DNA of 52,212 nt from an uncultured Lachnospiraceae bacterium (GTDB lineage: Bacteria > Bacillota > Clostridia > Lachnospirales > Lachnospiraceae), in NCBI GenBank assembly GCA_947570615.1, contig CANOVJ010000023.1:1-52212 (forward strand), given 5' to 3'. This document shows positions 2,757 through 33,391 of the stretch, piece after piece; the first letter of the stretch is position 1; each line of letters begins with the position of its first letter. A program made the translations under genes and the position numbers. The notes under the pieces are model-generated. The model did not search any database. It was not told where the DNA came from and worked only from the letters and a program-made list of their open reading frames with translations.

Positions 2757-2782
2757 GTAAAAATTTGGAACCAAATTTTTAC
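2757..2782. promoter_or_regulatory. Perfect 12-bp inverted repeat upstream of the sortase promoter
   Basis: GTAAAAATTTGG and CCAAATTTTTAC are perfect inverse arms separated by AA. The element ends 19 bp before the predicted -35 (2802). It has no trailing U-tract outside the stem, so it looks more like an operator for a dimeric regulator than a terminator. The regulator is not identified. Confidence 0.6.
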
Positions 2783-2801
2783 CCACATATGGATAAAAGA
2801 C

Positions 2802-2829
2802 TTGAATTTATTTCAAGATATAGTAAAAT
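2802..2829 (+). promoter_or_regulatory. Predicted sigma-A promoter of the sortase/LRR operon
   Basis: TTGAAT (2802-2807) and TAAAAT (2824-2829) are spaced by 16 bp, about 30 nt before the AAAGGAG ribosome binding site at 2845-2851. Confidence 0.55.
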
Positions 2830-2860
2830 AAATCATATATGCGCAAAGGAGAAGTGGTCC

Positions 2861-4120: not shown

Positions 4121-4163
4121 CAGGAATTGGAAGTTACTTTACAGTAAAAGGAGAGTTAGCAAA

Positions 4164-9305: not shown

Positions 9306-9314
9306 GAGTTCCCT

Positions 9315-12152: not shown

Positions 12153-12208
12153 GGCGGCGCATGACCCGTTTAAATCAGTCAGAAAACAGACAACATCACA
12201 ATTTCAGG

Positions 12209-12246
12209 CTCCCGGCATATGATAATTAAAAAGCCGGGAGTTTTTT
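12209..12246 (+). terminator. Terminator of the sortase/LRR operon
   Basis: CTCCCGGC (12209-12216) pairs with GCCGGGAG (12233-12240) across a 16-nt AT-rich loop, followed directly by six T residues. The 3' arm contains GGGAG, which sits 6 nt before the ATG of the subtilase and may double as its ribosome binding site. Confidence 0.85.
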
Positions 12247-13312: not shown

Positions 13313-13414
13313 TATACATGGCTTTAACCAGATATGAAAATTTTTTCAGATATGTGTGGGAACGGAGCGGACTTCCGGTCTGCGGTTCCCGGGCCATGGG
13401 AGGAGGAGATCGCA

Positions 13415-14839
13415 GTGGCGGAAGAAAACAGATATTTTACCAACAGGCCGGTATCGCTTAACACAAAGAATAACCTGCTGGAGATAGAGGAGCATATGTA
13501 CATACTGGACGATGTGGCTAAGCCCAATGTGTTCAGGAATATGTTCCCCTACTCGGAGGTGCCCAAAATCCCTTTTAACGACAGGATCGTGCCCCATAAT
13601 ATGCCGAGGCAGATCTGGATCACGGACACCACGTTCCGGGACGGACAGCAGTCCAGAGCGCCTTATTCCACGGAGCAGATCGTTACGATCTATGATTATC
13701 TCCACCGTCTGGGAGGGCCAAACGGCATGATTCGGGCCAGCGAGTTTTTTCTGTACAGCAAAAAGGACAGGGACGCGGTCTGCAAATGCATGGAGCGGGG
13801 CTATGAGTTTCCCGAGGTGACGAGCTGGATCCGGGCCAGCAAGCAGGACTTTAAGCTGGTGAAGGAGCTTGGCATGAAGGAGACAGGTATTCTGGTGAGC
13901 TGTTCCGACTATCATATTTTCCTGAAGCTGAAAATGACCAGGCGGCAGGCTGTGGAGCATTATTTAAGTGTCGTCAGGGACTGCCTGGAGGAAGGGATCA
14001 GCGTCAGGTGCCATCTGGAGGATATCACCCGGGCGGATATTTACGGATATGTGGTTCCCTTCTGCCTTGAGCTGATGAAGCTGATGGAAGAGTACCGGAT
14101 CCCCATCAAGGTACGGGCCTGCGATACCATGGGTTATGGGGTGAATTATCCTGGCGCGGTAATTCCCAGGAGCGTGCAGGGAATCATTTACGCGATTCAC
14201 ACCCATGCGGGCGTACCTCATGAGCTCATAGAATGGCATGGCCACAATGATTTTTACAAGTCGGTGGTGAACTCCACCACGGCCTGGCTCTACGGATGTT
14301 CGGGAGTCAACACCTCCCTGTTTGGCATCGGCGAGCGCACCGGAAATACACCTTTAGAGGCCATGGTGTTTGAGTACGCGCAGCTCAAGGGCGATTTAAA
14401 CGGCATGGATACCACGGTGATCACGGAGCTGGCGGAGTATTACGAGAAGGAGATCGGCTATCATATTCCGGAGAGAACGCCTTTTGTGGGCAGGAATTTC
14501 AATGTCACCCGGGCGGGGATCCATGCGGACGGTCTTCTGAAAAACGAGGAGATCTACAACATTTTCGACACGGAGAAATTCCTCAACAGGCCGGTTCTGT
14601 GTGCGGTTTCCAATACCTCCGGGCTGGCGGGTATCGCTCACTGGATCAATACTTATTATAAGCTGACGGGAGAGGATCAGCTCGACAAGACCAGCCCCCT
14701 TGTGTCAGAGCTCAAAAAGTGGGTGGATGAGCAGTACGAGGATGGCCGCGTGACGGTTCTCACAGACCAGGAGCTGGTACAGAAAATTTCCGAGATTTGC
14801 GGAAAAATCGGTATAGATAAGGATGTATTTGTATCATGA
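13415..14839 (+). CDS. Probable citrate (Re)-synthase, homocitrate/isopropylmalate synthase family
   Basis: A 474-residue DRE-TIM metallolyase that condenses acetyl-CoA with a 2-oxoacid. TDTTFRDGQQ carries the catalytic Arg and metal Asp, and EWHGHNDF carries the metal-binding HxH. It lacks the LeuA C-terminal regulatory domain. The genes for a regulator and isocitrate dehydrogenase follow directly, which favours oxaloacetate as substrate, as for the Re-citrate synthase of Clostridium kluyveri and relatives; homocitrate synthase remains possible. These proteins are sometimes misnamed histone-lysine methyltransferases. I chose GTG 13415 because AGGAGG (13401-13406) lies 8 nt upstream; an ATG at 13334 has no ribosome binding site and lies about 15 nt after the expected transcription start. 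The 3' end overlaps the next gene by ATGA. Confidence 0.78.
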   Translation: MAEENRYFTNRPVSLNTKNNLLEIEEHMYILDDVAKPNVFRNMFPYSEVPKIPFNDRIVPHNMPRQIWITDTTFRDGQQSRAPYSTEQIVTIYDYLHRLGGPNGMIRASEFFLYSKKDRDAVCKCMERGYEFPEVTSWIRASKQDFKLVKELGMKETGILVSCSDYHIFLKLKMTRRQAVEHYLSVVRDCLEEGISVRCHLEDITRADIYGYVVPFCLELMKLMEEYRIPIKVRACDTMGYGVNYPGAVIPRSVQGIIYAIHTHAGVPHELIEWHGHNDFYKSVVNSTTAWLYGCSGVNTSLFGIGERTGNTPLEAMVFEYAQLKGDLNGMDTTVITELAEYYEKEIGYHIPERTPFVGRNFNVTRAGIHADGLLKNEEIYNIFDTEKFLNRPVLCAVSNTSGLAGIAHWINTYYKLTGEDQLDKTSPLVSELKKWVDEQYEDGRVTVLTDQELVQKISEICGKIGIDKDVFVS

Positions 14840-15537
14840 GCAGTTATGATGTAAAAAGGGAAGTTTCAGACCGGTACTCTCTGCGGGGACGGGTGTTCCA
14901 CCGTCTGCGGGAGGATATTCTGAACGGAAAATATAAGGAGCATGAGGAGCTTAAGGAGGTTGCCATCGGCGAGGAGCTGGGAGTCAGCCGCACGCCGGTC
15001 AGGGAAGCCTTCCGGCAGCTTGAGCTGGAGGGACTGATTCAGATTGTTCCAAACAAGGGCGCTTATGTGACGGGAATCACCGCCAGGGATGTGAAGGATA
15101 TTTATATGATACGCTCGTCTCTGGAGGGGATGTGCGCCCGCCTTGCCACGGAGCAGATTACGCCGGAGCAGCTCGAGGAACTGGAGGAAAATGTCTATCT
15201 CGCCAGCTTTCATGCATCTAAGGGGCATATGGAGCAGATGGCGGAGCTGGACAACCGTTTCCATCATATTCTCTATGAGGCCTGTAACTCTAAAATGCTG
15301 GAGAATCTTTTGCAGGATTTCCATCAGTATGTGATACGGATCCGCAAAAGAACCCTCTCCACGAAGGAGAGAGGAATCGCCTCCAACGAGGAGCACCGGG
15401 GAATTATGGAGGCGATCAAGGCGGGAAATCCGAAGGAGGCGGAGCGGCTTGCCACCCTCCACATGGAAAATGCCTATGACAATATTGTAAAAAGCGGGTT
15501 ATATGATATATTTGAAGCAGAGGAAAAGCAGCAATAG
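14836..15537 (+). CDS. GntR-family transcriptional regulator, FCD (FadR-type) domain
   Basis: A 233-residue DNA-binding regulator. The winged helix-turn-helix is at about 14-80 (LREDILNGKYKEHEELKE, then LGVSRTPVREAFRQLELEGL, which is strongly diagnostic). The all-helical FCD effector domain is at about 85-220, with metal-ligand candidates in ELDNRFHHIL, NEEHRGIMEAI and LATLHMENA, as in FCD proteins that bind carboxylates through a metal. It overlaps the citrate synthase stop (ATGA) and precedes isocitrate dehydrogenase by 40 nt. The palindrome ATTGTATACAAT over the operon promoter is the likely operator. The effector may be citrate, 2-oxoglutarate or a related acid (inference). Confidence 0.9.
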   Translation: MSSYDVKREVSDRYSLRGRVFHRLREDILNGKYKEHEELKEVAIGEELGVSRTPVREAFRQLELEGLIQIVPNKGAYVTGITARDVKDIYMIRSSLEGMCARLATEQITPEQLEELEENVYLASFHASKGHMEQMAELDNRFHHILYEACNSKMLENLLQDFHQYVIRIRKRTLSTKERGIASNEEHRGIMEAIKAGNPKEAERLATLHMENAYDNIVKSGLYDIFEAEEKQQ

Positions 15538-15577
15538 CAGCTGCAACGGCAGCGAAGAACAGGAGGTATGACTGAAA

Positions 15578-16783
15578 GTGGAAAAAATCAAAATGACGAC
15601 ACCCCTGGTGGAGATGGACGGGGATGAGATGACCAGGATTCTCTGGCAGATGATTAAGGATGAGCTTCTGCTCCCGTACATTGATCTGAAGACGGAGTAT
15701 TATGATCTGGGACTTGCTCACAGGAACGAGACCGACGATCAGGTGACGGTGGACAGCGCCAACGCCACGAAGAAATACGGGGTGGCGGTAAAGTGTGCGA
15801 CCATTACGCCCAACGCCGCCAGAATGACTGAGTACAATCTGAAGGAGATGTGGAAAAGCCCCAACGGCACCATCCGCGCGATTCTGGATGGAACCGTGTT
15901 CCGCGCGCCTATTCTGATTAAGGGAATCGTTCCCTATGTGAAAAACTGGACAAAGCCCATCACCATCGCCCGCCATGCTTACGGAGACGTCTACAAAAAT
16001 GTGGAGATCAGGGTTCCCGGTAAGGGAAAGGCGGAGCTGGTCTTTACCGGGGAGGACGGCGCACAGGTGCGGGAGACCATCCACACCTTTGACGGGCCGG
16101 GCATCCTTCAGGGCATCCACAACACGGAAAAATCCATCGCCAGCTTTGCCAGGGCCTGCTTTGGCTATGCCATCGACACCAGGCAGGATCTGTGGTTCGC
16201 CACCAAGGATACCATTTCCAAAAAGTATGACCACACCTTTAAGGATATTTTTCAGGAGATTTATGACGCCGAGTATAAGCAAAAATTCGAGCAGCTTGGC
16301 ATTGAATACTTTTATACCCTCATCGACGACGCGGTTGCCCGTGTGATCCGCTCCGAGGGCGGCTTTATCTGGGCCTGCAAAAACTATGACGGGGACGTGA
16401 TGTCCGACATGGTGGCTACCGCCTACGGGGATCTCTCCATGATGACCTCCGTTCTGGTATCTCCGGAGGGGGTTTATGAGTATGAGGCGGCTCACGGAAC
16501 CGTGCAGCGCCATTATTATAAGCATCTGAAGGGAGAGGAGACCTCCACCAACTCCATCGCCACCATCTTCGCGTGGACAGGCGCGCTGCGAAAGCGCGGG
16601 GAGCTGGACAACATCCCGGAGCTTGCGGCCTTTGCGGATAAGCTGGAGAGGGCCTGCATTCAGACTGTGGAGGATGGAAAGATGACAAAAAGCCTTTCGC
16701 TGATCTCCACCTGCGAGGAGCCTGTGATCTTAAACAGCCTTGATTTTATTAAGGCGATCAGAGAGACGCTGGATACGATGTAA
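15578..16783 (+). CDS. icd: NADP-dependent isocitrate dehydrogenase
   Basis: A 401-residue enzyme that oxidatively decarboxylates isocitrate to 2-oxoglutarate and makes NADPH. It belongs to the homodimeric, eukaryote-like IDH subfamily: [20 protein letters not shown] at the N-terminus, [12 protein letters not shown] in the substrate site, and [17 protein letters not shown] with [11 protein letters not shown] in the cofactor region. AGGAGGT (15561-15567) lies 10 nt before GTG 15578, which I take as the start; ATG 15593 is a less well placed alternative, and ATG 15568 is out of frame. With the Re-citrate synthase it forms the oxidative branch of an incomplete TCA cycle feeding glutamate synthesis. 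No aconitase gene is in the operon, so it must be elsewhere. Confidence 0.95.
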
Positions 16784-16822
16784 ACAAACGCTGTCACGCT
16801 CTGCGTGGCTGAATGTAAAAAG

Positions 16823-16847
16823 AGCTGACCGTGCGGTCAGCTTTTTT
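16823..16847 (+). terminator. Terminator after icd
   Basis: AGCTGACC (16823-16830) and GGTCAGCT (16835-16842) form a perfect 8-bp stem with a GTGC loop and a run of six T residues. Confidence 0.92.
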
Positions 16848-16855
16848 CATGAGAA

Positions 16856-17040
16856 TTATTGCAGAATATTTTCATAGTCCTGCAAGTCATGGTAAATCCC
16901 GATGATATATGCACAGTCATCAACGATCTTATACAACATAAAATTTTAGATGCGGATCTGTGACTTTTTTATGACTTCATATTTTTCTCTGAATACAGCA
17001 TACTCTTGTTTTAGCTTATGCTTTACAGTATAATTTTTTG
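16856..17040 (-). pseudogene. Decayed RelE/ParE-family toxin fragment
   Basis: Read on the minus strand, this stretch gives about 30 residues ending KYEVIKKSQIRI, an in-frame TAA at 16948-16946, then NFMLYKIVDDCAYIIGIYHD and LQDYENILQ up to a TAA at 16856. The second part is characteristic of the C-terminal strands of RelE/ParE toxins (a YKIVDD-like strand, then a Y/H-D core and an L-x-D-Y tail). The upstream half of the gene is missing: beyond about 17040 the frame runs into the ATPase gene on the opposite strand. A likely single change (GAA to TAA) made the internal stop. No antitoxin gene is adjacent. I infer a dead toxin-antitoxin remnant whose 5' part was replaced when the neighbouring operon was joined. 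Confidence 0.7.
17006..17034 (+). promoter_or_regulatory. Predicted promoter of the MoxR/VWA operon
   Basis: TTGTTT (17006-17011) and a consensus TATAAT (17029-17034) are spaced by 17 bp. The start would fall close to 17041, giving a leader of about 20 nt that just includes GGAAGGAGG (17043-17051). The promoter lies inside the RelE remnant. Confidence 0.6.
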
Positions 17041-17059
17041 TAGGAAGGAGGACACAGCC

Positions 17060-18175
17060 ATGGAACACAAGACAGAGATCAGGCCGCCTGTGGAGGAGCG
17101 CTACCGTGCGGAGCTGGAAGCGCTCAGGGCTCTGGACAGGGGCCGAAAGCCCCAAAACTGGCAGCTTTCACCGAAAGCAGTGCGCACATTCATTCTGGGA
17201 AGCCGGGAACCCCTTAGCTGGCAGGGGGAGCAGATCCATATCCGAAAGAAATATCTGGGCAATGACGCGCTGGTGGAGCGCTGTATCATCACGCTGGCGG
17301 GAAACCGGGGGCTGATGCTGGTGGGGGAGCCGGGGACGGCCAAGACCATGCTCTCGGAGCTTTTGTCTGCGGCGATCAGCGGAGTGAGCACCAACACCAT
17401 TCAGGGGACGGCGGGAACCACGGAGGATATGATCAAATATAGCTGGAACTATGCGCTCCTGCTGGCCAGGGGGCCGGTGCGGGAGGCGCTGGTGTCTTCG
17501 CCTCTCTACACTGGCATGGAAAAGGGGATCATCACCCGGTTCGAGGAGATCACCCGCACGCCGGCGGAGATTCAGGACAGTCTGATCAGTGTGCTCAGTG
17601 ACAAGGTGATGAATGTGCCGGAGCTGGGAGAGGAGGGGCTTCTCTTTGCCAGGGAGGGCTTTAATGTGATCGGAACGGCCAATACCAGGGACAAGGGCGT
17701 CAACGAGATGAGCAGCGCCTTAAAGCGCCGCTTTAACTTTGAGACGGTGATGCCGGTGAAGGATGTGGCCATGGAAAAGCAGATTATCATCAGCGAAGTA
17801 GAGTCTCTTGCAGGCCAGGCACAGATCGACATGCCTGTGGACGAGGATGTGGCGGGGCTTCTGGCCTCCACCTACCATGAGCTCCGGGAGGGCGTCTCCT
17901 CCATGGGACACCGGATCGATCGTCCCGCTGCGGTGATGAGCACGGCGGAGGCGGTGTCAGTCTATTACCAGACCATGATGAGCGCCTACTATTACGGCGA
18001 TTCCCGGATGGACCTGGGCGATCTGGTGCGGAATCTGGTGGGAGCCGTCCAGAAGGAAAACAGCGAGGACATGGAAAAGCTGCGCGGTTATTTTGACACG
18101 GTGGTTCGGGATAAGGGAGGAAAAGAGGGCGGCTTATGGAACAGTTATTACGAAGCCAGGAAGTACCTTCGGTAA
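17060..18175 (+). CDS. MoxR-type AAA+ ATPase (YehL-like)
   Basis: A 371-residue AAA+ ATPase, first gene of a five-gene operon. Walker A is GEPGTAKT (89-96), the Walker B-like acidic pair is E162/E163 in TRFEEI, and sensor 1 is in VIGTANTRDKG. The acidic pair FEE in place of the usual DE is common in this branch. MoxR proteins act with VWA-domain partners as chaperone-like machines that insert metals or remodel complexes, and a VWA gene is present two genes on. The order ATPase, DUF5682, VWA, SWIM, DUF4132 matches the E. coli yehL, yehM, yehP, yehQ and yehI families, whose biological role is not established. The start is ATG 17060, with GGAAGGAGG 8 nt upstream. The 3' end overlaps the next gene by 40 nt. 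Confidence 0.88.
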   Translation: MEHKTEIRPPVEERYRAELEALRALDRGRKPQNWQLSPKAVRTFILGSREPLSWQGEQIHIRKKYLGNDALVERCIITLAGNRGLMLVGEPGTAKTMLSELLSAAISGVSTNTIQGTAGTTEDMIKYSWNYALLLARGPVREALVSSPLYTGMEKGIITRFEEITRTPAEIQDSLISVLSDKVMNVPELGEEGLLFAREGFNVIGTANTRDKGVNEMSSALKRRFNFETVMPVKDVAMEKQIIISEVESLAGQAQIDMPVDEDVAGLLASTYHELREGVSSMGHRIDRPAAVMSTAEAVSVYYQTMMSAYYYGDSRMDLGDLVRNLVGAVQKENSEDMEKLRGYFDTVVRDKGGKEGGLWNSYYEARKYLR

Positions 18176-20652
18176 TTCCTGAAGTACCTCCGGTAACTTC
18201 CGAAGTACCTCCGGGATCATGGGATTTGAACAGTCCGGTTCTGTATTTTCCGATCCGGCATCACAGTCCGGCCTGCGGCTTTCATCTGAAAAAGGCCATA
18301 GAGGCATATGAGCCCGACTGTATCCTCATAGAGGGCCCGGAAAACGCGGGGGAGATGATCCCGGTGCTTGCCCATGAGCAGACCAGGGCCCCCGTGGCGC
18401 TGTATTATTTTTTCAGGGACAAAAAGGGGCTCCTGAGTGAGAAAAAGGAAGATTACAGGTGTTATTACCCGTTTCTGGACTGCTCTCCGGAGCTGGTGGC
18501 CCTGCGGGAGGCGAAGGCGCGGGAGATTCCCGCCCGCTTTATCGATCTTTCCTATGCAGAGATCCTGCTGGGAACCAGGAGGGGGAACACTCTTTCCGGG
18601 GCGGACGGCGCAGGAGAGGATGCCGCAAAAGAAAATGATGCGGAAGAAAAGCCGCGGGAATCTGGCAGCTTTCAGTATAACGATGATTATCTGCTCTCCC
18701 GCAGCCGTTATGTCCGTCTTCTCTGTGAAAAAACAGGGCTGCGCAGCTTTGCGGAGTTCTGGGAAAAGTATTTTGAGATAGAGGGCCTTTTTCTGGGGAC
18801 GCAGGAGTTTGTGGAGCGGATGCTGGCATATTGCCGGCTTACCAGAAGCCACACGCCCTGGCAGGAGCCTGAGGATGACGGATGTCTGTTGCGGGAGCGG
18901 TATATGGCGCAGCAGATCGCGCAGGCATCCCGGGATTTTCAGCGGATCCTGGTGGTGACGGGGGGCTTTCACACGCCCGCTCTCACAGAGCTTGTGAAAT
19001 GGCAGGAGGATCATTTTGAGTACATCGGCGAAAGGGTAAAGCTTCATTCCTTCGGGGAGGGGGAGCAGGGCGTTTATCCTCTGGCTTACTCCATGGAGGC
19101 GGCGGACGCGCTGAACGGCTATGCAAGCGGCATGCAGTCTCCGGGCTTTTATCAGCAGGTGTGGGAGGCGCTCATGGCCGGCGAGGAGCCGGAAGGGGTC
19201 TACCGGGAGGCGGTGCTGAATCAGCTTGTGCGGGCGGGACGCGGGGCCCGGAAGAAAAAGGAGGGCATCTCTTCTTATGATGTGATCTGCGCTTTGTCCA
19301 TGGCCAGGGGACTGGCGGCCCTTCGGGGAAAAAGAGAGCCGGGGCTGTATGAGCTGTGGGACGGCGCGCTTTCCTCCTTTGTGAAGGGGGAAAGGAACGC
19401 TTCCACGGATCTGCCCATGCGGATTTTGCAGGAGCTGAATACGGGCAGGCAGACCGGGATTCTGTGCAGGGACGCGAAAAGGCCGCCCCTGCTTTCCGAC
19501 TTCGAGCAGCAGTGCCGCAGGTTTGGCCTTAAGATACAGTCCTCTGCCAGGCAGGAGGTCACGCTGGAGCTTTTCACCAAAAAAAAGCATCTGTCCATGA
19601 GCCGTTTCTTTTATCAGATGGAGTTTCTGGAAACCGGATTTGCTGTCCGCAAAAAGGGCGCAGATCTGGTGGGACGCAGGGACAAAAGCCGGATCAGGGA
19701 GCTCTGGGAGTACCGCTACGGCGCCCAGGTGCTCTCTGCGCTGGTGGATGTGTCCATGGCGGGAGCAACGGTGGCGGAGGCCGCCCGGGCGATGCTGATC
19801 CGGAAATTCGGCGAAAGCACGGACAGCCGGGATGCGGCGGCGCTTCTGGCCAGGGGTTTTCTCATGGGCTTTCTGGAGGAACAGGCGGATATGGGAGCCC
19901 ATATCCGGGAGGTGATCCTGGAGGACGGAGATTTCTTTTCCCTGACGGAAGGGTTTTCCCATCTGCGGATGCTCTATGAGCTTCAGGAGCTGTATCAGGT
20001 GGAGGACGCTGCGGAGCTGTCCGGGCTCCTTCATATTTCCTTTCAGAAGATCGTGCAGCTCCTTCCGTCCATGGCTCAGGTGAAGGAGGAGCAGCTTAAC
20101 GCCTGCATGGAAAGCTGCCTGTCTCTGTACCAGATGACGGGAAAAAAGGGGTTTACCCATTTCCGGCCCGGGCTTCTCACGGCGCTCACCCTTCTTCTTG
20201 AAAAGAAGGATTTGCGGCCGGGGCTTGAGGGAGCCGTGCTGGGTATCCTCTATGGCTATGACAGCGATTACGGGGAGCGGATCGAGGCCGCCGCCGCGGG
20301 CTATCTGCGGGGGACGGAAAAGAGACAGCTTATGAGCGCGGCGTTTTTGCGGGGGCTGTTTTTTACGGCCAGGGATCTGGTGTTCGTCCGGGAAGGATTT
20401 CTTGCGATGATCCATGAGCTGCTCTCGGAGCTGTCCGTGGAGGCGTTTTTGAGGCTGCTGCCGGAGCTTCGTCAGGCGTTCGGATATTTTACGCCGCTGG
20501 AGACTGACCGGATTGCCGGGAGGGCGGCCGCCCTCTGCGGCGGAAAAAAGCGGGAGCTCTTAAAGGGCAGGATGGTGTCTCCCCGGGAATACGCCTATGG
20601 GGAGCAGCTTAACGCCTGGGCAGCACAGCGCAGCGCCCGGGAGAGCGGATGA
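18136..20652 (+). CDS. DUF5682 protein (YehM-like), partner of the MoxR/VWA system
   Basis: An 838-residue protein. The conserved core begins at about residue 35 with VLYFPIRHHSPACGFHL and DCILIEGPENAGEMIP, followed by ILVVTGGFHTPAL near 270. These conserved His/Glu/Gly motifs mark the DUF5682 family, found almost always beside a MoxR ATPase and a VWA protein. Its biochemical activity is unknown; the HHSPAC motif suggests a metal or catalytic site (inference). The rest is mainly alpha-helical. ATG 18136 lies within the ATPase gene, with GAGGG just upstream, so translation is coupled. The first 30 residues come from a 21-bp tandem repeat and are probably not functional. There is no signal peptide or membrane segment, so it is cytoplasmic. 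Confidence 0.8.
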   Translation: MEQLLRSQEVPSVIPEVPPVTSEVPPGSWDLNSPVLYFPIRHHSPACGFHLKKAIEAYEPDCILIEGPENAGEMIPVLAHEQTRAPVALYYFFRDKKGLLSEKKEDYRCYYPFLDCSPELVALREAKAREIPARFIDLSYAEILLGTRRGNTLSGADGAGEDAAKENDAEEKPRESGSFQYNDDYLLSRSRYVRLLCEKTGLRSFAEFWEKYFEIEGLFLGTQEFVERMLAYCRLTRSHTPWQEPEDDGCLLRERYMAQQIAQASRDFQRILVVTGGFHTPALTELVKWQEDHFEYIGERVKLHSFGEGEQGVYPLAYSMEAADALNGYASGMQSPGFYQQVWEALMAGEEPEGVYREAVLNQLVRAGRGARKKKEGISSYDVICALSMARGLAALRGKREPGLYELWDGALSSFVKGERNASTDLPMRILQELNTGRQTGILCRDAKRPPLLSDFEQQCRRFGLKIQSSARQEVTLELFTKKKHLSMSRFFYQMEFLETGFAVRKKGADLVGRRDKSRIRELWEYRYGAQVLSALVDVSMAGATVAEAARAMLIRKFGESTDSRDAAALLARGFLMGFLEEQADMGAHIREVILEDGDFFSLTEGFSHLRMLYELQELYQVEDAAELSGLLHISFQKIVQLLPSMAQVKEEQLNACMESCLSLYQMTGKKGFTHFRPGLLTALTLLLEKKDLRPGLEGAVLGILYGYDSDYGERIEAAAAGYLRGTEKRQLMSAAFLRGLFFTARDLVFVREGFLAMIHELLSELSVEAFLRLLPELRQAFGYFTPLETDRIAGRAAALCGGKKRELLKGRMVSPREYAYGEQLNAWAAQRSARESG
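18160..18216 (+). repeat. 2.7 copies of a 21-bp tandem repeat at the ATPase/DUF5682 junction
   Basis: GAAGTACC is repeated at 18160, 18181 and 18202 with a 21-bp period. The first copy holds the ATPase stop codon (TAA, 18173-18175). In the DUF5682 frame the copies encode EVPSVIP, EVPPVTS and EVPPG. This looks like slippage duplication of the ATPase 3' end that lengthened the N-terminus of the next protein. Confidence 0.7.
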
Positions 20653-20728
20653 GCCGCCGCGCGTTTCGGATCAGGCAGGCGTCTGTGTGGGGCGCAGCGG
20701 ACGGTGCAGAAAAGGAGTGAGGGGCAGG

Positions 20729-21856
20729 ATGAATACCAGTCAGATGAACAGATGGAGGCTGATTCTGGGCGGCTTTGCGAAGGACCGGCTTGCCTTCGGG
20801 GAGGGGGCCGCGCTGGAGAACGGGATCTCCTGCGTGGATCTGGAGGATGTGCTGGATTTTCTTTATAACAGGGAACAGGGGGAGGATGTGCGCAGGCAGG
20901 GAGGCACCCAGGAGAGCCATCTGATGGCGGCTGAGTGGATCACCCGGATCCGCAGGCTCTTTCCCGGAGAGACGGTGGAAATTCTGGAGCGCCACGCGCT
21001 GGAGCATTACGGGATGACGGAGCTTCTGGCCGATAAGGAGGTTCTGGAGAAGTTAGAGCCCAATCAGGAGCTGCTCAAAACCATTTTACAGCTTAAGCAT
21101 CTGATGAAGGGGGATGTGCTGGACCAGGCCCGGCGGATTGTAAGGAAGGTGGCCGGGGAGATTGCGGAGAGGTTAAGCCAGGATATCCGCCGCTCCCTTC
21201 TGGGAAGAGTGGACAGAAATTCCGCAAGCGCCATTCCCTCCATGAGGAATCTGGACATTCAGAAGACCATCCGCAGGAACTTAAAGCACTATGACCCCGA
21301 GCAGGAGCGTCTGGTGCTGGAGCGGGTGTATTTTAACAGCCGCGTGCGGCGTTTTTGCAAATGGCGTGTGATCATTGCGGTGGACGAGAGCGGCTCCATG
21401 CTGGACTCGGTGATCCACAGCGCGGTGATGGCGGGGATTTTTGCCGGACTTCCCATGCTGGATACCCGTCTGGTGATCTTTGACACTCAGGTGGTGGATT
21501 TAAGCGGTTATCTGGACGATCCGGTGGCCACTCTGATGAGCATTCAGCTCGGAGGAGGAACTTATATCGCGGGGGCCCTGCAGTATTGCGAATCTCTCGT
21601 CGAGAATCCCCACAGAACCATGGTGGTGCTGGTCTCCGATCTGTGTGAGGGGGGAAGTATCCAGGGGCTTTTGGGTGTCAGCCGGGGGATTATTGAGAGC
21701 GGCGCGAAGCTGATCTGTCTGACGGCTCTGGATATGGACGCCAATCCGGCCTATGACCGTCGCACGGCTCAGAAGCTGGCGGACCTTGGCGCCCATGTGG
21801 GGGCCATGACGCCGGAGGCCCTGGGGGATTTTATGGGAAGGATCATGAACGCTTAG
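20729..21856 (+). CDS. VWA-domain protein (YehP-like)
   Basis: A 375-residue protein with a helical N-terminal half and a C-terminal von Willebrand factor A domain (about 210-375). The metal-ion-dependent adhesion site is complete: D219, S221 and S223 in VDESGS, T278 in GGGTY and D304 in VSDLCEGG. This predicts a Mg-dependent protein-binding surface, the usual partner of MoxR ATPases. At 375 residues it is about the size of E. coli YehP. I chose ATG 20729, with AAAAGGAG and GAGGGG upstream; the reading frame is open further upstream but overlaps the DUF5682 end in another frame. It ends 10 nt before the next gene. Confidence 0.9.
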   Translation: MNTSQMNRWRLILGGFAKDRLAFGEGAALENGISCVDLEDVLDFLYNREQGEDVRRQGGTQESHLMAAEWITRIRRLFPGETVEILERHALEHYGMTELLADKEVLEKLEPNQELLKTILQLKHLMKGDVLDQARRIVRKVAGEIAERLSQDIRRSLLGRVDRNSASAIPSMRNLDIQKTIRRNLKHYDPEQERLVLERVYFNSRVRRFCKWRVIIAVDESGSMLDSVIHSAVMAGIFAGLPMLDTRLVIFDTQVVDLSGYLDDPVATLMSIQLGGGTYIAGALQYCESLVENPHRTMVVLVSDLCEGGSIQGLLGVSRGIIESGAKLICLTALDMDANPAYDRRTAQKLADLGAHVGAMTPEALGDFMGRIMNA

Positions 21857-21866
21857 GAGAGAGCCA

Positions 21867-24086
21867 ATGGATGCCTTAAAATCTATGATCGAAAAAGTGG
21901 ACGACGATTATCTGACCGGGCTCAGCAATAAGGGGACGCTGAAACGGGCATATAAGGATCTGGAGCAGGAGACGCCCTCTCTCACATGGCAGGAGGGGCA
22001 GGCGCAGGTGAAGCTGAAGGAGGAGACCTGTCTTCTGCGCATGCCTCTGGGGGAGAGCAGCTGCACTTGTCCTTCCCGCAGCATTTGCCGGCACATTCTG
22101 ACGGCGGTGCTGTGGATGAAGGGGGAGCTGGCCTTTGGAAAAGAAGCCGCGCAGGAGCCTTCCGGTGCGTCGGAGCCGGGGGAGGCGGGGAGGGCGGACG
22201 CTGCCAGTGAAGCCGGGCAGGAGGAAAATGCCGGATTCACGGAATTGCTCTGTATTCCCGTGGACCGTCTCAGGCGGGCCTGCGGGGGTAAGCGCTATGG
22301 CCAGCTTCTGTCCCATATGCGGGCGGGAGAGCTGCCACCCATGACGGAGAGCTCCATTGTGACGGTGAGCCTTCCCTGGGAGAATGCCACGGTCAGGCTC
22401 CTTACGCCTTTTGAATATAGCTCATGTAGCTGCCACAGGAGCGATCTGTGTCCCCATAAGGCGCAGGCGCTTCTGGCATATCAGGTTCACAGGAAAAGAC
22501 ATACCCTGGAGGAGCTGGAAAAGCTCCTGGAGCCGGATACGGTGTGGGAGGAGGAGCTGGTAAGACAGGCGGGAGAAAGCATCTGTGAGGAGCTCTGCCA
22601 GCAGCTCTGCACGGGGCTTTCCAGAGCGTCAGCCGAAGCGGCCGGGAGTCTTGTGCGGCTTGCGGTGATTGCACACCGGGCGGGGCTGGCCCGGCCGGAA
22701 GGGATGCTTCGGGAGGCGGCCGCATACTATGAGCAGTATTTTGCCCGCTCCGCCCGCTTTCGGGGAGGGGAGCTGATGGGGAAATTACTCGCCCTTTACC
22801 GCACCGCCCACAGGCTTTCCAGGGCGGAGGGCGGGGAGGAGATCCGCCTGCTGGCGGGCTCCTTTCGGGACGCCTATCTGCCTGTGGGAGATCTTCATCT
22901 GGTGGGAATGGGAGCCAGGTCCTTCTTAAGCAGGACGGGGTACGCGGGAGAGATCTACTATTTTCTGGAGACGGGCCAGAGGAGATGGTACACCTGGACG
23001 GATGCACGGCCTGCCTTTTATGAGGGAAGGGATAACAGGAGACCGGTTCCTTCCGGGAGCGCGCCTGCTCCCTGGGGATTAAACTGCAGCCGGGAAACGC
23101 TCCAGAGCCTTTCCTTTGACCTGCGAAATGCCAGAGTCGCCTCCGGCAGGCGGCTTTCGGCCAGTCAGGAATGCCATGGGGAGGCCACGGGGAACCGCAG
23201 CATGGAGCAGGAGGAAATCAGGCAGATGATCTGGTGGGATTATGAGAAGCTGCTTCTGGATTCCATCAGGCGCAGGGACGCAGAGCGGGGATACGGGGAG
23301 GAGGATTACGCAGAGGAAAGTCCTGCGGAGTATTCCCAAAGGAGAGAATATCCCGTGCTTGTGGGAGCGGTGAGGTGGGATGAGGCCTCCTTCGATAAGG
23401 TACGGCAGCGGTTTTCCTGGAATATGTACGATACGGAGGGCAGAAGACTCTGTATCTCTGTGAACTATACGAAGCAGGAGGGACTGGTGATCGGCCTGCT
23501 GGAGCGGTTAGAGCAGCGCCTTGGGAAGCGCTGCGCGGGAAATATTGTTTTTTTCGGCTCCTTTTATATGGATGAGGAGGGCGGGCTCTGTCTCTATCCC
23601 ATCGAATTTTTTGTGGGGGACGGGAAGTCCGGGCTCTCTCCGGAGAGAGATGATGCCGGGGCTTACGGAAATCTCTCCCAAGAAAATCGGAAAGGCTGCG
23701 AAGCCCTTCCCGGGGCAGACCCGGACGTTTCCCTGGGAGAAGGTCTTGTCTCCATGGAGATTCTGGAGAGTATGGAGGGGTATTGCCGACAGGTGCGGGG
23801 CCTTGTGGAGGATCTGTTTATCAGCGGCCTTGTCTCCCTGACGGAGGAGACCCTTTCCTGGCTGGAGCGCCTTTCCCGGGAGGGGGAGCAGATGGGACTG
23901 CACCAGGCGGGCCTGGAGCTTATGCAGATTCACAGGATCTTAACGGGCAGGAGACATCAGATGGAATTTTCACCGGAGCTGGCGGTGGAGGCTCTTGGCA
24001 GGCTGGCGGCTTATCTGGACGCCTGTCAGGAGAGGCTTCTGAGGGATAAGGCGCTTGTGGCTTTGCAGGGCGGGCAGATACAATAA
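21867..24086 (+). CDS. Protein with two SWIM zinc-finger motifs (YehQ-like)
   Basis: A 739-residue protein. Two SWIM-type CxCx(n)CxH zinc-binding motifs are visible: C66-C68-C74-H76 (CTCPSRSICRH) and C187-C189-C195-H197 (CSCHRSDLCPH). SWIM fingers bind DNA or proteins. A low-complexity Ala/Glu/Gly linker (about 93-122) separates them. The C-terminal 500 residues are helical, with no family I can name beyond YehQ-like. GGAGAG precedes the ATG, and the gene lies 10 nt after the VWA gene. As the only operon member with a nucleic-acid-binding type of domain, it may define the target of the ATPase-VWA machine (inference). Confidence 0.82.
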   Translation: MDALKSMIEKVDDDYLTGLSNKGTLKRAYKDLEQETPSLTWQEGQAQVKLKEETCLLRMPLGESSCTCPSRSICRHILTAVLWMKGELAFGKEAAQEPSGASEPGEAGRADAASEAGQEENAGFTELLCIPVDRLRRACGGKRYGQLLSHMRAGELPPMTESSIVTVSLPWENATVRLLTPFEYSSCSCHRSDLCPHKAQALLAYQVHRKRHTLEELEKLLEPDTVWEEELVRQAGESICEELCQQLCTGLSRASAEAAGSLVRLAVIAHRAGLARPEGMLREAAAYYEQYFARSARFRGGELMGKLLALYRTAHRLSRAEGGEEIRLLAGSFRDAYLPVGDLHLVGMGARSFLSRTGYAGEIYYFLETGQRRWYTWTDARPAFYEGRDNRRPVPSGSAPAPWGLNCSRETLQSLSFDLRNARVASGRRLSASQECHGEATGNRSMEQEEIRQMIWWDYEKLLLDSIRRRDAERGYGEEDYAEESPAEYSQRREYPVLVGAVRWDEASFDKVRQRFSWNMYDTEGRRLCISVNYTKQEGLVIGLLERLEQRLGKRCAGNIVFFGSFYMDEEGGLCLYPIEFFVGDGKSGLSPERDDAGAYGNLSQENRKGCEALPGADPDVSLGEGLVSMEILESMEGYCRQVRGLVEDLFISGLVSLTEETLSWLERLSREGEQMGLHQAGLELMQIHRILTGRRHQMEFSPELAVEALGRLAAYLDACQERLLRDKALVALQGGQIQ

Positions 24087-24107
24087 TGAACAGGGGGTAA
24101 TGGGATC

Positions 24108-27100
24108 ATGAATGTAAGCGAAGAACGTAATTATCAGAAGCTGATGGAGACGCTGGATCTGCTGGAGCTGTCCCGGGAAAACCGGGAGCTGGCCGAGGCG
24201 TATCTGGACTGCTCCGCTCCGGAGAAAAGGGAGCTTCTGGCGAAGCTGAAGAAGCAGGATTTTGCCCGGCTGGATAAGGATAAGCAGCAGAAGGCAAAGG
24301 CGTACGCAGAGCATCTGCAAAAGAGAGGAAGGATGGAGGAGATGGAGCGCTTCGTGCGGTTTGCGGCCGCGGCGGGAGGCTCCACAGCCTGCTATGTGCT
24401 GGTTTCCTACGGCTGGAACCTGGATAAATATAAGGAATGGCTCACGCCGGCCCAGCAGGCGGCGATCAGGGCGGAGGCCATCGCCTGGAGCGCCTGGCAG
24501 CTTCAGGACGCGGCCAAAAATATCGGCCAGAAGGATCCGGAAATCCTGCGGCAGGCAGTGAAGCTCTGCTATAATAAGAGCGGCAACGCCGGGGTACTCC
24601 TTGCGGGGCTGTCCCTTCGCTATGAAAAAAGCGATAAGGGACCGGGAGGCTTTCTGAAGGGCCTTTTGTCAAAAGAAAGGTTTTCCTCCGAAAAGAATCC
24701 TCTTCAGAAGACGAAAAAGGAGATTGCGGAAACGGTAAAGAATCTGGAGGACAGCCTGATCAGCAGTATCGAAAACCTTTTTGTGGGAACGGCCCCCTCC
24801 GGAGAGGATATAAAAAAGCTGGAGAATTTTGTGCGGACGCAGGATCCGAAAAAGGGGATGCTTTCTGCCCAAAATTCCGGGGAGCTTTCGCCGGAGATTC
24901 TGAGCATCATTCAGGGAAAGCAGTTCTCGGAGTACCTTATTTCCCTTCTGGCCGGCGCGGCGTTTCTGGGGATGGAGCGTTCCCCGGCGCTGGTCGGCTT
25001 TCTGCGGCTGATGGCGGCCATGGACAGGGAGGCGGGACGCACTGCGGTGCTGGATACCTGCCTGAAAATCGGAGGAAGGCAGTGGTTTGACGAGCATATA
25101 GAAACGCTGGAGGATATTCTGCCTCTGGATCAGGTCGCCTTTGTACTGTGGTGTCTGGTACATAATGCCGACGGCTCCCTGGGGCGTCTGAGCCGAAACA
25201 ATCCCGGGGTGATCCGAAGGGCCATGCCGGATGTACCTACCCAGTATTACGATTATCTTCTTGAGCTCATAAAGCGGGAGAATCCGGATCTCTATAAGGA
25301 GGTCAGCGCCAGCGGGCAGGAGGATTTCCGAAGGAGGCTGGCACAGGAATTCACCAGCCGCTATATGCAGGTACAAAGCGGCGGGGTGAGCGGACAGCAG
25401 GAGGCCATCCGGTATCTGCTGGGGGAGGCAGAGCTGGAGGCGGTTTATCCTTTCGTAAACGGATGGCGCAAAGACTGGCGCTATGACAATAACCGTGCCC
25501 GGAAGATGTATGAGCTGAAAAAAAGCGGCAGGGAGCCTGCGCTTTTCCGCCGGGCGGTGGTGATGGAGGGGCTCTGTCAGAGATCGGCCTTTTTTGTCTC
25601 TTACTGGTACGGAAAGTATCATAAAATCGACCGGGAGGAGATAGCGGGAATCCTTGCTGTCTTTGAGGAGGAAAAGCTGCCCTTTTCATATCAGATGGAG
25701 GCCCTCGGGGGGATCTGGGAGGGCTTTTATCAGGAAAAGGATAAGACGGCCTTTATCAACGAGTGTGTGGCAGTTCTTTCCAGGAGGATGGAACAGTGGA
25801 AGGAGGACTTCGCCGCCCAGGCCAGGGAGGGCTCGGTCTTTAACCGGTTTCTGAGCATTCGTATCCTGGACGTTTACTGGAAGGAGTACCGGGACGTGCT
25901 GCTTGCCTGCGCCATGGACAGCGCAAGACAGGTGCGGGAGCTTCTTGAGGCGGTGTACGTAAGTCATAAGGAGTGGGAGCCCCGGATCAGGGCCATGCTC
26001 TCCTCCAAAAAATCCCAGGAAAGAGAGCTGGCGGTACGGGTTTTGAAAAACTGGGGGGTGGATTCCTGCCGGGAAGAGCTGGAAAACGCCCTGGCGGTGG
26101 AAAAGAGCAAAAAAATCAGGGAGCTTTTACAGGACTGTCTGGGGATCGCGTCGCAGGAGCCGGAGCAGTCAGGTGAAAAAGGAGAAAAGACTACCGCGGA
26201 TCTCGCCGGGGAAATCCTCAAAGGCGGCAAAAAGCGTAAGGTTTCCTGGGCTCTTGAGGGACCTCTTCCGGAGGTACACAGGACAGACGGGTCTCCCGCT
26301 TCCCAGGAGGAGCTGGCGGCAATTCTGGTAACCTATGCGGACATGGGGACGCCCGGCGTGAATAAGGAGGCTTCCAGACTGGCGGCAGGGCTTATTTCCT
26401 CAGAGCTGGCAGTGTGGATCAACCGAATTTTCGTAAAATGGCTGGATATAGGAGCAGAGGCAAAGAAGAAGTGGGTGCTCTATGCCGCCTCCATCCATGG
26501 CGGGGAGCAGATCGTTCCCGCGCTGTATGCCCAGATCCAGGAATGGCCGGCCGCCGCCAGGGGAGCCATGGCGGCGGAGGCCGTGAAGGCCCTTGCCCTG
26601 AACGGAAGCGCCACGGCCCTTCTCCTGGTGGATCAGATTTCGCGTAAGTTCAAATTCCGGCAGGTAAAGACCGCCGCAGGGGAGGCCCTCTCCTGGGCCG
26701 CCAGAGAGCTGGGGATATCCAGAGACGAGCTGGAGGACCGGATTGTGCCGGATCTGGGCTTCGATGAGCGGATGGAGCGGAGCTTTGACTATGGCAGTCG
26801 AAGGTTTAAGGTGATTCTCACCCCCACCCTGGAGCTTCAGGTTTTTGATGAGGAAGGAAAGAAGCTTAAGAGCCTTCCGGCCCCCGGAAAACGGGATGAG
26901 GCGGAGAAGGCGCAGGCGGCCAGCGGGGAGTTTAAGCTCCTTAAGAAACAGCTTAAGACCGTGGTGTCCAATCAGAAGCTTCGTTTAGAGCAGGCCCTGA
27001 GCGCGGAGCGGCGCTGGCCTGTGGAAAAATGGCGGGCATTGTTTGTGGAAAATCCCGTGATGCACCAGTTCGCCATGGGACTGATCTGGGGCGTGTATGA

Positions 27101-27722
27101 GGACGGTGCTTTGAAGGATACCTTCCGCTATATGGAGGACGGAAGCTTTAACACGGTGGACGGGGAGGAATACGAGCTGGCGGAGGGCGGCCTGGCAGGG
27201 CTGGTGCATCCCATCGAGCTGACGCAGGAGGAGCGTGAGGCCTGGAAGGAGCAGCTTAGTGACTACGAGGTGGTTCAGCCCATCGAGCAGCTGGAGCGCC
27301 CGGTTTTCCGGATGACGGAGCAGGAGAGGGAACAGAAGGAGCTGACCCGCTTCGGAGGAAAGCTGCTGAACGGTCTGTCCCTTTCCGGTAAGCTCCAGGG
27401 ACAGGGCTGGTATCGGGGAAGCGTACAGGACGCCGGGGGATATTACAGCTTTTACAGAGAGGATGGAGAGATGGGCGTGGAGCTGGAATTCTCCGGAGCC
27501 TTTGTGGGAGACGAGAACGAGGAGGTGACGGTTTACGGGGCGCGCTTTTATAAGGCGGGTACCGTGAAGCGGGGCAGCTATGTCTACGACACCATAAAGA
27601 AGGAAAACCTTTACCGGCTGGGGGAGGTGAGTCCCCGGTACTTCAGCGAGATCGTGCTGCAGCTCACGAAGGCCACGGCGTCCAGCCAGGAGCAGTTGGC
27701 GTATCCGGAGTGCAGGAAATAG
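24108..27722 (+). CDS. DUF4132 giant protein (YehI/MolR-like)
   Basis: A 1204-residue cytoplasmic protein, last gene of the operon. The DUF4132 region lies at about 890-1080: WPVEKWRALFVENPVMHQF, LIWGVYEDG, DTFRYMEDGSF and LVHPIELT. The preceding 850 residues are helical, with HEAT/ARM-like stretches (for example REPALFRRAVVMEGLCQ and SQERELAVRVLKNWGVDSC). E. coli homologues include YehI and MolR; MolR was once linked to molybdate regulation, but the biochemical function is unknown. It begins 21 nt after the SWIM gene, with GGGGG about 11 nt before the ATG. Size and repeat architecture suggest a scaffold or client-binding subunit (inference). Confidence 0.8.
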   Translation: MNVSEERNYQKLMETLDLLELSRENRELAEAYLDCSAPEKRELLAKLKKQDFARLDKDKQQKAKAYAEHLQKRGRMEEMERFVRFAAAAGGSTACYVLVSYGWNLDKYKEWLTPAQQAAIRAEAIAWSAWQLQDAAKNIGQKDPEILRQAVKLCYNKSGNAGVLLAGLSLRYEKSDKGPGGFLKGLLSKERFSSEKNPLQKTKKEIAETVKNLEDSLISSIENLFVGTAPSGEDIKKLENFVRTQDPKKGMLSAQNSGELSPEILSIIQGKQFSEYLISLLAGAAFLGMERSPALVGFLRLMAAMDREAGRTAVLDTCLKIGGRQWFDEHIETLEDILPLDQVAFVLWCLVHNADGSLGRLSRNNPGVIRRAMPDVPTQYYDYLLELIKRENPDLYKEVSASGQEDFRRRLAQEFTSRYMQVQSGGVSGQQEAIRYLLGEAELEAVYPFVNGWRKDWRYDNNRARKMYELKKSGREPALFRRAVVMEGLCQRSAFFVSYWYGKYHKIDREEIAGILAVFEEEKLPFSYQMEALGGIWEGFYQEKDKTAFINECVAVLSRRMEQWKEDFAAQAREGSVFNRFLSIRILDVYWKEYRDVLLACAMDSARQVRELLEAVYVSHKEWEPRIRAMLSSKKSQERELAVRVLKNWGVDSCREELENALAVEKSKKIRELLQDCLGIASQEPEQSGEKGEKTTADLAGEILKGGKKRKVSWALEGPLPEVHRTDGSPASQEELAAILVTYADMGTPGVNKEASRLAAGLISSELAVWINRIFVKWLDIGAEAKKKWVLYAASIHGGEQIVPALYAQIQEWPAAARGAMAAEAVKALALNGSATALLLVDQISRKFKFRQVKTAAGEALSWAARELGISRDELEDRIVPDLGFDERMERSFDYGSRRFKVILTPTLELQVFDEEGKKLKSLPAPGKRDEAEKAQAASGEFKLLKKQLKTVVSNQKLRLEQALSAERRWPVEKWRALFVENPVMHQFAMGLIWGVYEDGALKDTFRYMEDGSFNTVDGEEYELAEGGLAGLVHPIELTQEEREAWKEQLSDYEVVQPIEQLERPVFRMTEQEREQKELTRFGGKLLNGLSLSGKLQGQGWYRGSVQDAGGYYSFYREDGEMGVELEFSGAFVGDENEEVTVYGARFYKAGTVKRGSYVYDTIKKENLYRLGEVSPRYFSEIVLQLTKATASSQEQLAYPECRK

Positions 27723-27790
27723 CGGCAAAGTACAATAAAATACATTGCCTGTTAAAAATGGCAGTAATAAAATAAAAAGGATGGGTGTAT

Positions 27791-28603
27791 ATGGCTTTAA
27801 ACTGGATTAACGTAGAGGAATACTCTTTTAACAGCTTTCTTTTGATGGAACGGTTCCAGATCCGGATGCTTCTGGAGTGGGCGGAGCAGGACGCGGAGCT
27901 GGCGGGAGAGCTTGGGATCGCTCTCCGGGCGAATCCGGCGGTTTCATGGTATTTTCGGCATAAATGTCCTGAGTGTGGGGCTATTGTGCAGGAGCTGGAG
28001 AAAAAGGGCCCCTGCGGGGCCGATGGATCCGGGGTTCGCCGGGCGGAGGTGTATGTGCTCTCCCGGGTGGAGGATTTCGTCGTCTATACCACGCCGGAGG
28101 TGATGGACACAAAGTGTGATTTTATTTACGCGTGGGATAAGGAGCGGCTTTTCGAGCTGGCAGATTTTCGCGGGAAAAGGGTTCTGGATATAGGGAGCGG
28201 TTCGGGGAGGCTGGCATTTGCCGCCGCCGAAAGAGCGCTGGAGGTCTATGCCAGCGAGCCGGTTGACTGTCTGCGCGAATATCTGCGGGATAAGGTTACC
28301 CGGGAGAAGATCGCAAATGTAAGGGTCGTGGACGGAAGGGCGGACGCTCTGGCGTATCCGGACAATACCTTTGATATCGTCATGTCCGGCCATGTGGTGG
28401 GAGACGATTATGAGGGGGAGCTTTCCGAGATTTTCCGTGTGACCAGGCCGGGAGGCTGGGTGCTTGACTGTCCCGGCGAGGAAAGCCGCAGATGTGAGCC
28501 GGACCGTGTGCTGTTGGAGCGAGGCTTTGAAGAGTTTCACTATGTGAGTTCTCTGGGCGGGGATGTGTACCGCTATAGAAAGCAGATTTTTAAGGAAGAT
28601 TGA
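27791..28603 (+). CDS. Class I SAM-dependent methyltransferase
   Basis: A 270-residue methyltransferase. The SAM-binding fold starts near residue 130: VLDIGSGSGRLAF (motif I), then an acidic residue in VYASEP, VVDGRADALAYPDNTFDIV (motifs II/III) and RVTRPGGWVLDCPGEE. This is the Methyltransf_11 type. The N-terminal 110 residues are unassigned, with a CPECG pair (about 56-60) but no matching second pair. The substrate is unknown. I chose ATG 27791, with AAAAAGG 10 nt upstream; GTG 27785 is possible. It follows the DUF4132 gene by 68 nt, with a weak promoter-like pair (TTGCCT 27745, TAAAAT 27768), so it may be the tail of that operon or separate. Confidence 0.85.
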   Translation: MALNWINVEEYSFNSFLLMERFQIRMLLEWAEQDAELAGELGIALRANPAVSWYFRHKCPECGAIVQELEKKGPCGADGSGVRRAEVYVLSRVEDFVVYTTPEVMDTKCDFIYAWDKERLFELADFRGKRVLDIGSGSGRLAFAAAERALEVYASEPVDCLREYLRDKVTREKIANVRVVDGRADALAYPDNTFDIVMSGHVVGDDYEGELSEIFRVTRPGGWVLDCPGEESRRCEPDRVLLERGFEEFHYVSSLGGDVYRYRKQIFKED

Positions 28604-32224: not shown

Positions 32225-32262
32225 GAAAACCTCCCCGCCCATCAGTCGGCGGGGAGGTTTTC
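32225..32262. terminator. Bidirectional terminator between convergent genes
   Basis: GAAAACCTCCCCGCC (32225-32239) and GGCGGGGAGGTTTTC (32248-32262) are perfect 15-bp inverse arms with an 8-nt loop. A and T runs at the stem base serve both strands. The right arm is also the last codons of the minus-strand DUF4317 gene. Confidence 0.9.
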
Positions 32263-33387: not shown

Positions 33388-33391
33388 TTGA

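Follow-up and report, generated by a model that had tools for sequence, protein, structure and literature searches.

We report a five-gene operon from an uncultured Lachnospiraceae bacterium that is best explained, with a probability of about 0.5, as an ATP-driven MoxR-VWA remodeling machine coupled to a TIKI-type hydrolase. It lies within a 52,212-nucleotide (nt) stretch (here called the window; bases 1 to 52212 of contig C23 of a 4.05-Mb draft genome in 112 contigs) and is almost certainly the same system as the yehI-L-M-P-Q cluster of Escherichia coli, a YehL-type MoxR-VWA set. The N-terminal ~300 residues of its DUF5682 (YehM family) protein very probably form a TIKI/TraB-superfamily domain, as judged from sequence and predicted structure. 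Published work is cited from excerpts of the papers, and statements drawn from it apply to those excerpts.

Operon structure

Open reading frame (ORF) and Pfam analysis identified five plus-strand genes at 17060 to 27722, all intact, in the order ATPase-DUF5682-VWA-SWIM-DUF4132. Features of the operon and its upstream region are as follows.

16823..16842, no strand assigned: hairpin then T run, after icd (minus-strand reading given by the scan; plus-strand T run read by eye)
17006..17034, plus strand: possible promoter, TTGTTT, 17 nt, TATAAT (read by eye; absent from the consensus-scan list)
17060..18175, plus strand: YehL-type MoxR AAA+ ATPase, 371 amino acids (aa), Walker A GEPGTAKT, Walker B position FEEI (ORF, Pfam, homologues, tree, alignment)
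18136..20652, plus strand: DUF5682 (YehM family) protein, 838 aa, N-terminal TIKI/TraB-like domain and C-terminal helical repeat
18217..19155, plus strand: probable TIKI/TraB-superfamily domain, aa 28 to 340, H42, E66, R253, and H279 invariant
20729..21856, plus strand: VWA protein, CoxE-like, YehP family, 375 aa, complete metal ion-dependent adhesion site (MIDAS) (ORF, Pfam, alignment)
21867..24086, plus strand: double-SWIM protein, YehQ family, 739 aa (ORF, Pfam, alignment)
22062..22094, plus strand: first SWIM motif, CTCPSRSICRH (alignment)
22425..22457, plus strand: second SWIM motif, CSCHRSDLCPH (alignment)
22587..22841, plus strand: duplicated helical domain, internal copy in the SWIM protein
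23742..24068, plus strand: duplicated helical domain, C-terminal copy in the SWIM protein; a separate small gene in 28 related loci
24108..27722, plus strand: DUF4132 (YehI family) protein, 1204 aa, modeled as a HEAT superhelix and C-terminal domain
26856..27410, plus strand: DUF4132 Pfam domain, aa 917 to 1101

Pfam matches were far over cut-off for AAA_5 (1e-34), DUF5682 (3e-101), VWA_CoxE (PF05762; 7e-44), and DUF4132 (1e-54) and barely over it for SWIM (21.7 versus 19.6 bits). These searches confirmed the family placement proposed in an initial annotation of the window, and its correspondence to E. coli yehL/M/P/Q/I was borne out, as was its spacing of the genes (a 40-nt overlap between ATPase and DUF5682, followed by intergenic distances of 76, 10, and 21 nt). 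The ATPase start was set at ATG 17060 and not at ATG 17018, which the ORF tool had picked, because homologues begin there and a AGGAAGGAGG ribosome-binding site lies eight bases before the ATG.

Of the single promoter predicted in the same annotation, a perfect TATAAT (17029 to 17034) and a weak −35 element (TTGTTT) 17 nt upstream could be found, but a consensus scan did not list the site; the promoter is thus a plausible candidate match, recognized by eye. Over positions 16700 to 28000, that scan gave 3 promoter-like sites against 3.7 expected, no excess over chance. The hairpin at 16823 to 16842 is the probable terminator of icd and would set the operon apart from that gene. A downstream methyltransferase gene (27785 to 28603) was rejected as a sixth operon member, being present in 2/30 genus genomes (in the second, off the operon contig) and missing from the neighbor clusters of related loci.

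TIKI/TraB-like domain of the DUF5682 protein

The TIKI/TraB superfamily is marked by two G-x-x-H motifs. In an alignment of 63 DUF5682 proteins, the second motif was complete and both His residues were invariant (63/63); the G of the first motif is P in 61/63 window-type proteins and G in E. coli. The full signature of His, Glu, Arg, and His (H42, E66, R253, and H279) was likewise invariant in 63/63, with E66 and R253 matching the superfamily Glu after the second strand and the basic residue before the second His motif, both of which are described as conserved (PMC6254334). In profile comparison with TraB (PrgY/GumN, PF01963), two disjoint sets scored at least twice the shuffle maximum (local alignment) against one PF01963 subgroup, and the match to the other subgroup was weaker. 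H42 was preferred to H43 because of the alignment of the second set and the gapless 24-residue His-Glu spacing; H43, taken as the TraB-His equivalent in the first hhalign run, was dropped and is Leu in some relatives.

In the predicted structure, the N-terminal domain showed the TIKI fold and had a TraB chain as its best structural match. The 24-residue His-Glu spacing, the Arg, and the second G-x-x-H align between TraB and DUF5682; DUF5682 differs in that it is fused to a helical-repeat arm, is encoded inside a MoxR-VWA operon, and is too distant for the Pfam TraB model to match. Foldseek matches of the whole DUF5682 protein were dominated by helical-repeat proteins, and a PDB sequence search with the DUF5682 profile gave no credible match. 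Structures of EreA, ChaN, and Tiki were absent among the best 50 structural matches and may stand lower in the list. As a comparison family, ChaN (PF04187) was not used, with only 2/149 genomes matched.

The domain is new and was missed by the initial annotation. Across 5.39 million open-licence papers, DUF5682 and DUF5691 were unmentioned and DUF4132 appeared in three, and no joint mention of MoxR with TIKI or TraB was found among papers that combined at least three of the relevant terms; subscription journals were outside the scope, and an earlier notice of the TIKI link, or a Pfam clan assignment, may exist.

The ATPase-VWA pair

The chaperone-like MoxR-VWA core that had been proposed was supported. 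Walker A is intact as claimed, with its Lys in 11/11 aligned proteins, and the MIDAS (D219, S221, S223, T278, and D304) was correctly called complete, with D, S, S, and D in 11/11 and T in 10/11 aligned proteins (numbering in the alignment runs one higher). In a maximum-likelihood tree whose rows did not include NorQ or CoxD, the window ATPase and E. coli YehL fell into one 20-row group (support, 98/100), with Lachnospiraceae rows closest to the window ATPase; E. coli RavA, on a very long branch, and eight MRP rows were split off from this group by a 100/99 branch. YehL has been described as one of seven MoxR subfamilies, with no function stated for it in the excerpt (PMC3893208). A PDB sequence search with the VWA profile gave no credible match.

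The pairing of a MoxR ATPase with a MIDAS-bearing VWA protein is shared with NorQD, CoxDE, and RavA-ViaA. The window set differs from these in having three additional conserved proteins and no metalloenzyme neighbor that we could see, and from RavA also in its separate ATPase clade. In the model for NorQD, the ATPase ring twists and stretches a linker of NorD, by which the target is opened (PMC13036017).

The CoxE-family match of the VWA protein (PF05762, 7e-44) would also suit a maturation chaperone of the CoxDE/NorQD kind, in which the ATPase-VWA pair would open a metalloenzyme so that a metal or cofactor could be inserted, with the remaining proteins as client adaptors. NorQD inserts iron by twisting its target (PMC13036017); MolR, which is YehH (PMC5541211), has been linked to molybdate use (cited in PMC8533742), and E. 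coli plasmid pF17EC0245-1 has a WGR-DUF4132 gene at the MolR (YehH) locus; and a yehM mutation is listed among those in copper-exposed E. coli populations (PMC12409786). Molybdate genes, however, were unchanged in PMC8533742, and no metalloenzyme or cofactor gene was prominent among the neighbor clusters of 80 related loci (clusters in at least 4 loci, inspected by eye), nor did one stand out among the 25 most frequent families out of the 133 detected in 123 proteins flanking 38 loci, rarer families lying outside this view. Metal insertion would also leave the invariant TIKI-type residues without a job, and we regard it as unlikely.

Conservation of the gene set

A VWA profile search returned at least 568 stretches encoding relatives, of which the best 80 loci were used. 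Of the 53 loci in which the VWA gene had over 7 kb of sequence on each side, 48 held all five families (each above 60 bits), so the fixed five-gene co-location, for which the initial annotation had suggested a check, held; the loci lacking a complete set were L033, L064, L097, L103, and L106. The window order was found in 42/80 loci, DUF4132-ATPase-DUF5682-VWA-SWIM in 12/80, and ATPase-DUF5682-VWA-DUF4132-SWIM in 5/80, with gene lists incomplete in the other 21/80, many at contig ends. Hosts span Bacillota, Verrucomicrobiota, Planctomycetota, Actinomycetota, and Pseudomonadota and include Lachnospiraceae, Ruminococcus, Bacillus, Paenibacillus, Kribbella, Pseudomonas, and Providencia, besides Verrucomicrobiota and Planctomycetota. 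Records titled Bacteroidales and Tannerella (L077 and L093) also hold the set, and the ATPase of L077, the one of the two included in the tree, groups within Bacillota; either transfer or misbinning may account for them. In the Brachyspira loci (L103 and L106), the VWA gene stood without the other four nearby, and a P-loop ATPase gene was seen by eye just before it on the opposite strand.

The E. coli cluster has the same five families as the window operon, and a plasmid copy (L026) encodes a VWA protein 42% identical and an ATPase 49% identical to those of the window. It differs in having two DUF4132 genes, placed first, and an extra yehK; in the K-12 annotation, yehI, yehL, yehM, yehP, and yehQ are present, the first DUF4132 gene (yehH) is a pseudogene, and a separate yehF precedes it. 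Part of the 15-kb yeh cluster was matched in 5375/5426 complete E. coli genomes, and at least 80% of its length was matched in 3963.

A sister layout (type B), SWIM-DUF5691 or other 620- to 670-aa protein-ATPase-DUF5682-VWA, occurred on plasmids of Rhizobium, Deinococcus, and Methylosinus and in two genomes from the same family as the window. The Deinococcus locus has a small extra gene ahead of DUF5682, and the VWA reading frame of Methylosinus is fragmented; Hymenobacter has one long DUF5691 gene and a small extra gene, with no separately annotated SWIM gene. The layout shares its ATPase, DUF5682, and VWA families with the window and likewise includes a SWIM protein and another large protein, but it lacks DUF4132, and each of six SWIM proteins checked has one SWIM motif. 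Its ATPases (seven in the tree) all fell outside the DUF4132-associated clade and did not form one group among themselves. This comparison suggests a common core made up of ATPase, DUF5682, VWA, SWIM, and an additional large protein. DUF5691 was rejected as a DUF4132 relative (profile comparison not significant; score, 28; probability, 2%). The clostridial 620- to 670-aa protein matched the HEAT part of DUF4132 (score, 52 over 57 columns), which may reflect a shared repeat only.

SWIM and DUF4132 proteins

The window SWIM protein has two CxCx5CxH motifs, starting at residues 66 and 187; by a simple pattern, 43 of 60 aligned proteins had at least two such motifs, 15 had one, and 2 had none. A small ORF of ~95 to 125 aa, one of six neighbor clusters found in at least 4 loci, lies inside the operon, mostly right after the SWIM gene. 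Homology links its product to the C-terminal part of the window SWIM protein and links both of these to an internal stretch of that protein (score, 62; maximum of 50 shuffles, 15.5). Judged from these homologies, the SWIM protein holds a duplicated helical domain, a sixth module that the initial annotation missed. Where recognized, the module had its own gene in 28 loci and was part of a fusion in 31 records, including the window; that nature has both joined and split the small protein and the SWIM protein is good evidence for a joint function. A PDB sequence search with the SWIM profile gave no credible match. The other five neighbor clusters were flank genes in mixed positions, identified by eye as an ABC-type ATPase (12 loci), a sensor kinase (10), a response regulator (5), and, with the window counted, a MatE-type transporter (5) and an alanyl-tRNA-synthetase-like protein (4).

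The structure model of the DUF4132 protein (residues 5 to 1204; mean predicted local distance difference test score, 89.8; predicted template modeling score, 0.62) shows a helical superhelix to about residue 870, then a mixed domain containing the Pfam DUF4132 stretch. Sequence and fold matches were to HEAT- and armadillo-type repeat proteins. The protein is therefore modeled as a giant HEAT superhelix with a C-terminal domain, which the initial annotation did not recognize, and its repeat matches fit a scaffold rather than a named function. DUF4132 copy number ranges from one to four, with two in the E. coli plasmid, Verrucomicrobium, Kribbella, and Iodobacter loci and four consecutive genes adjoining a SWIM-VWA-DUF5682 set on contig C11 of genome G471 (L149 and L150), where one DUF4132 gene spans both examined pieces and no ATPase gene was recognized in those pieces. 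Such variable number would suit a client or receptor role.

The SWIM motifs could instead belong to a nucleic-acid-linked stress machine, in which damaged DNA or RNA would be bound by the DUF4132/WGR and SWIM proteins and the resulting complex remodeled by the ATPase. A gene for a WGR and DUF4132 protein adjoins a DUF4132 gene in the E. coli plasmid copy, and genes for DUF4132 and WGR proteins showed strong induction when DdrO was depleted in Deinococcus radiodurans (PMC8533742). The window DUF4132 protein, however, has no WGR match in Pfam, and nucleic-acid binding by the SWIM and DUF4132 proteins, like the nucleic-acid target that the initial annotation suggested from the zinc finger and the size of DUF4132, is a supposition from sequence. 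SWIM domains also serve protein contacts, a further point against this explanation, which we consider very improbable.

Proposed function

In the ATP-driven remodeling machine that we favor, the five proteins would form one complex. The ATPase ring would grip and remodel a client through the VWA protein, with the motor working as in NorQD by analogy, and the HEAT (DUF4132) and SWIM proteins would act as scaffold or client receptors. The TIKI-like domain of DUF5682 may then cut or otherwise hydrolyze the remodeled client. Coupling of remodeling to hydrolysis is proposed tentatively. A bolder version, in which the YehL-type set represents a novel type of ATP-driven protease or hydrolase whose MoxR ring and VWA adaptor feed HEAT/SWIM-held clients to a TIKI/TraB-type site, is doubtful; if it is true, we know of no earlier AAA+ machine with a TIKI enzyme at its center.

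The presence in YehM of a TIKI/TraB-type domain whose catalytic-type residues are invariant would supply a specific hypothesis for an uncharacterized chaperone-like set, testable in laboratory E. coli. The yeh cluster is present, at least in part, in nearly all complete E. coli genomes, yet in the excerpts its genes appear mostly as entries in screens or gene lists. A BW25113 yehQ deletion is found in the strain tables of a butanol-tolerance study, yehP was slightly down in simulated microgravity, and yehM is placed under biofilm genes in a transcriptome, in each case with no mechanism given there.

Distribution and genomic context

DUF5682 was over cut-off in 5/299 genomes of a phylum sample (8 at E ≤ 0.001) and DUF4132 in 7/299. 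In a family sample, the counts were 21/200 and 20/200, respectively, with the sister layout and a different kind of long DUF4132 protein included. Within the genus, DUF5682 was found in 8/30 genomes; icd was found in 30/30 and lay within ~2 kb of DUF5682 in 3/8 carriers and on another contig in 5/8. Given the 8/30 presence and the icd adjacency in only 3/8, the operon is accessory and its position seems variable. Ratios of nonsynonymous to synonymous substitution rates (dN/dS) against two relatives were 0.05 to 0.22 in 8/10 comparisons; they are only a rough sign of constraint because synonymous sites were saturated in 2 and nearly so in several others. Parts of the set have been lost elsewhere: Shigella sonnei lineages have lost yehM and yehL or carry them in disrupted form (PMC12795559), and the DUF4132 region is lost or broken in a branch of E. 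coli sequence type 131 (ST131) (PMC9334617), so the set can be dispensable.

Of the mobile or accessory module suggested initially, the accessory part stood (8/30 genus and 21/200 family genomes), and the mobile part is a supposition. Transfer of the operon is likely. A phage or mobile origin was rejected: among viral contigs, the VWA profile hit 2 loci, each a weak and partial match, and the single match of the window VWA protein among 50,697 phage records was to an unannotated, unverified fecal clone. This clone (L172; MT835988.1, "Bacteriophage sp.") encodes a VWA relative 37% identical over 98% and may be a bacterial contig. DUF5682 matched 31 plasmid records, all below 60% identity and several chromosome-sized. 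Nothing in these matches marks the module as a phage one. The dead toxin gene said to neighbor the operon was not found, no toxin family being matched among the 20 flanking ORFs (part of the window's ORFs) scanned with Pfam.

Patchy presence (8/30 genus genomes), DUF4132 copy numbers of one to four, and the part losses in S. sonnei (PMC12795559) and ST131 (PMC9334617) lineages are also what a conflict or antiphage system would show, one that resembles the MoxR-vWA ternary systems and has the TIKI-like domain for its effector. A MoxR-vWA pair is the switch in systems proposed in PMC7159879, restriction-type genes lie near two plasmid copies, and 2/123 flanking proteins matched PtuA very strongly (best E, 1e-148). 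The excerpt of the main text of PMC7159879 (2020), however, mentions none of DUF5682, DUF4132, SWIM, WGR, and YehM. Among the component proteins, PADLOC gave only two IetA matches (E, 0.007 and 0.05), both in the ATPase's P-loop stretch, and the bpMoxR model (MoxR of the beta-propeller system) stayed under its cut-off (22.8 versus 27 bits). Among the 123 flanking proteins (38 loci), PADLOC at E 1e-10 matched at least one protein with 161 families, of which 25 were examined; the top families, largely ATPase families, matched 5 and 4 members, counts that stand without a control set. Matches in 5375/5426 E. coli genomes suit a wider role better, and the rough dN/dS values indicate sequence constraint. 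With weak PADLOC hits, bpMoxR below cut-off, and few defense-like flanking proteins despite the two strong PtuA matches, the link to conflict systems drawn in the initial annotation was not supported, and we judge such a role quite unlikely. Pfam matches of the five proteins included no VMAP, iSTAND, or FtsH, the Pfam coverage of these three being unchecked.

Other features of the window

A DUF3800-XI RNA motif (RF02975; 72.9 bits) lies at the very start of the contig (5 to 52, plus strand). Positions 2765 to 13158 hold a sortase gene, two genes whose large products are BspA-type leucine-rich repeat proteins (the first of 1756 aa, matching an InlB-like repeat, and the second of 945 aa), and then a subtilase gene. 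Directly upstream of the operon, at 13334 to 16783, are an HMGL-like gene, whose product we presume may be a Re-citrate synthase, a GntR/FCD regulator gene, and the isocitrate dehydrogenase gene in a row. On the minus strand (32242 to 37633), a gene for a DUF4317 protein adjoins one for a 1413-aa CoA-enzyme activase-like protein (BcrAD_BadFG and DUF2229).

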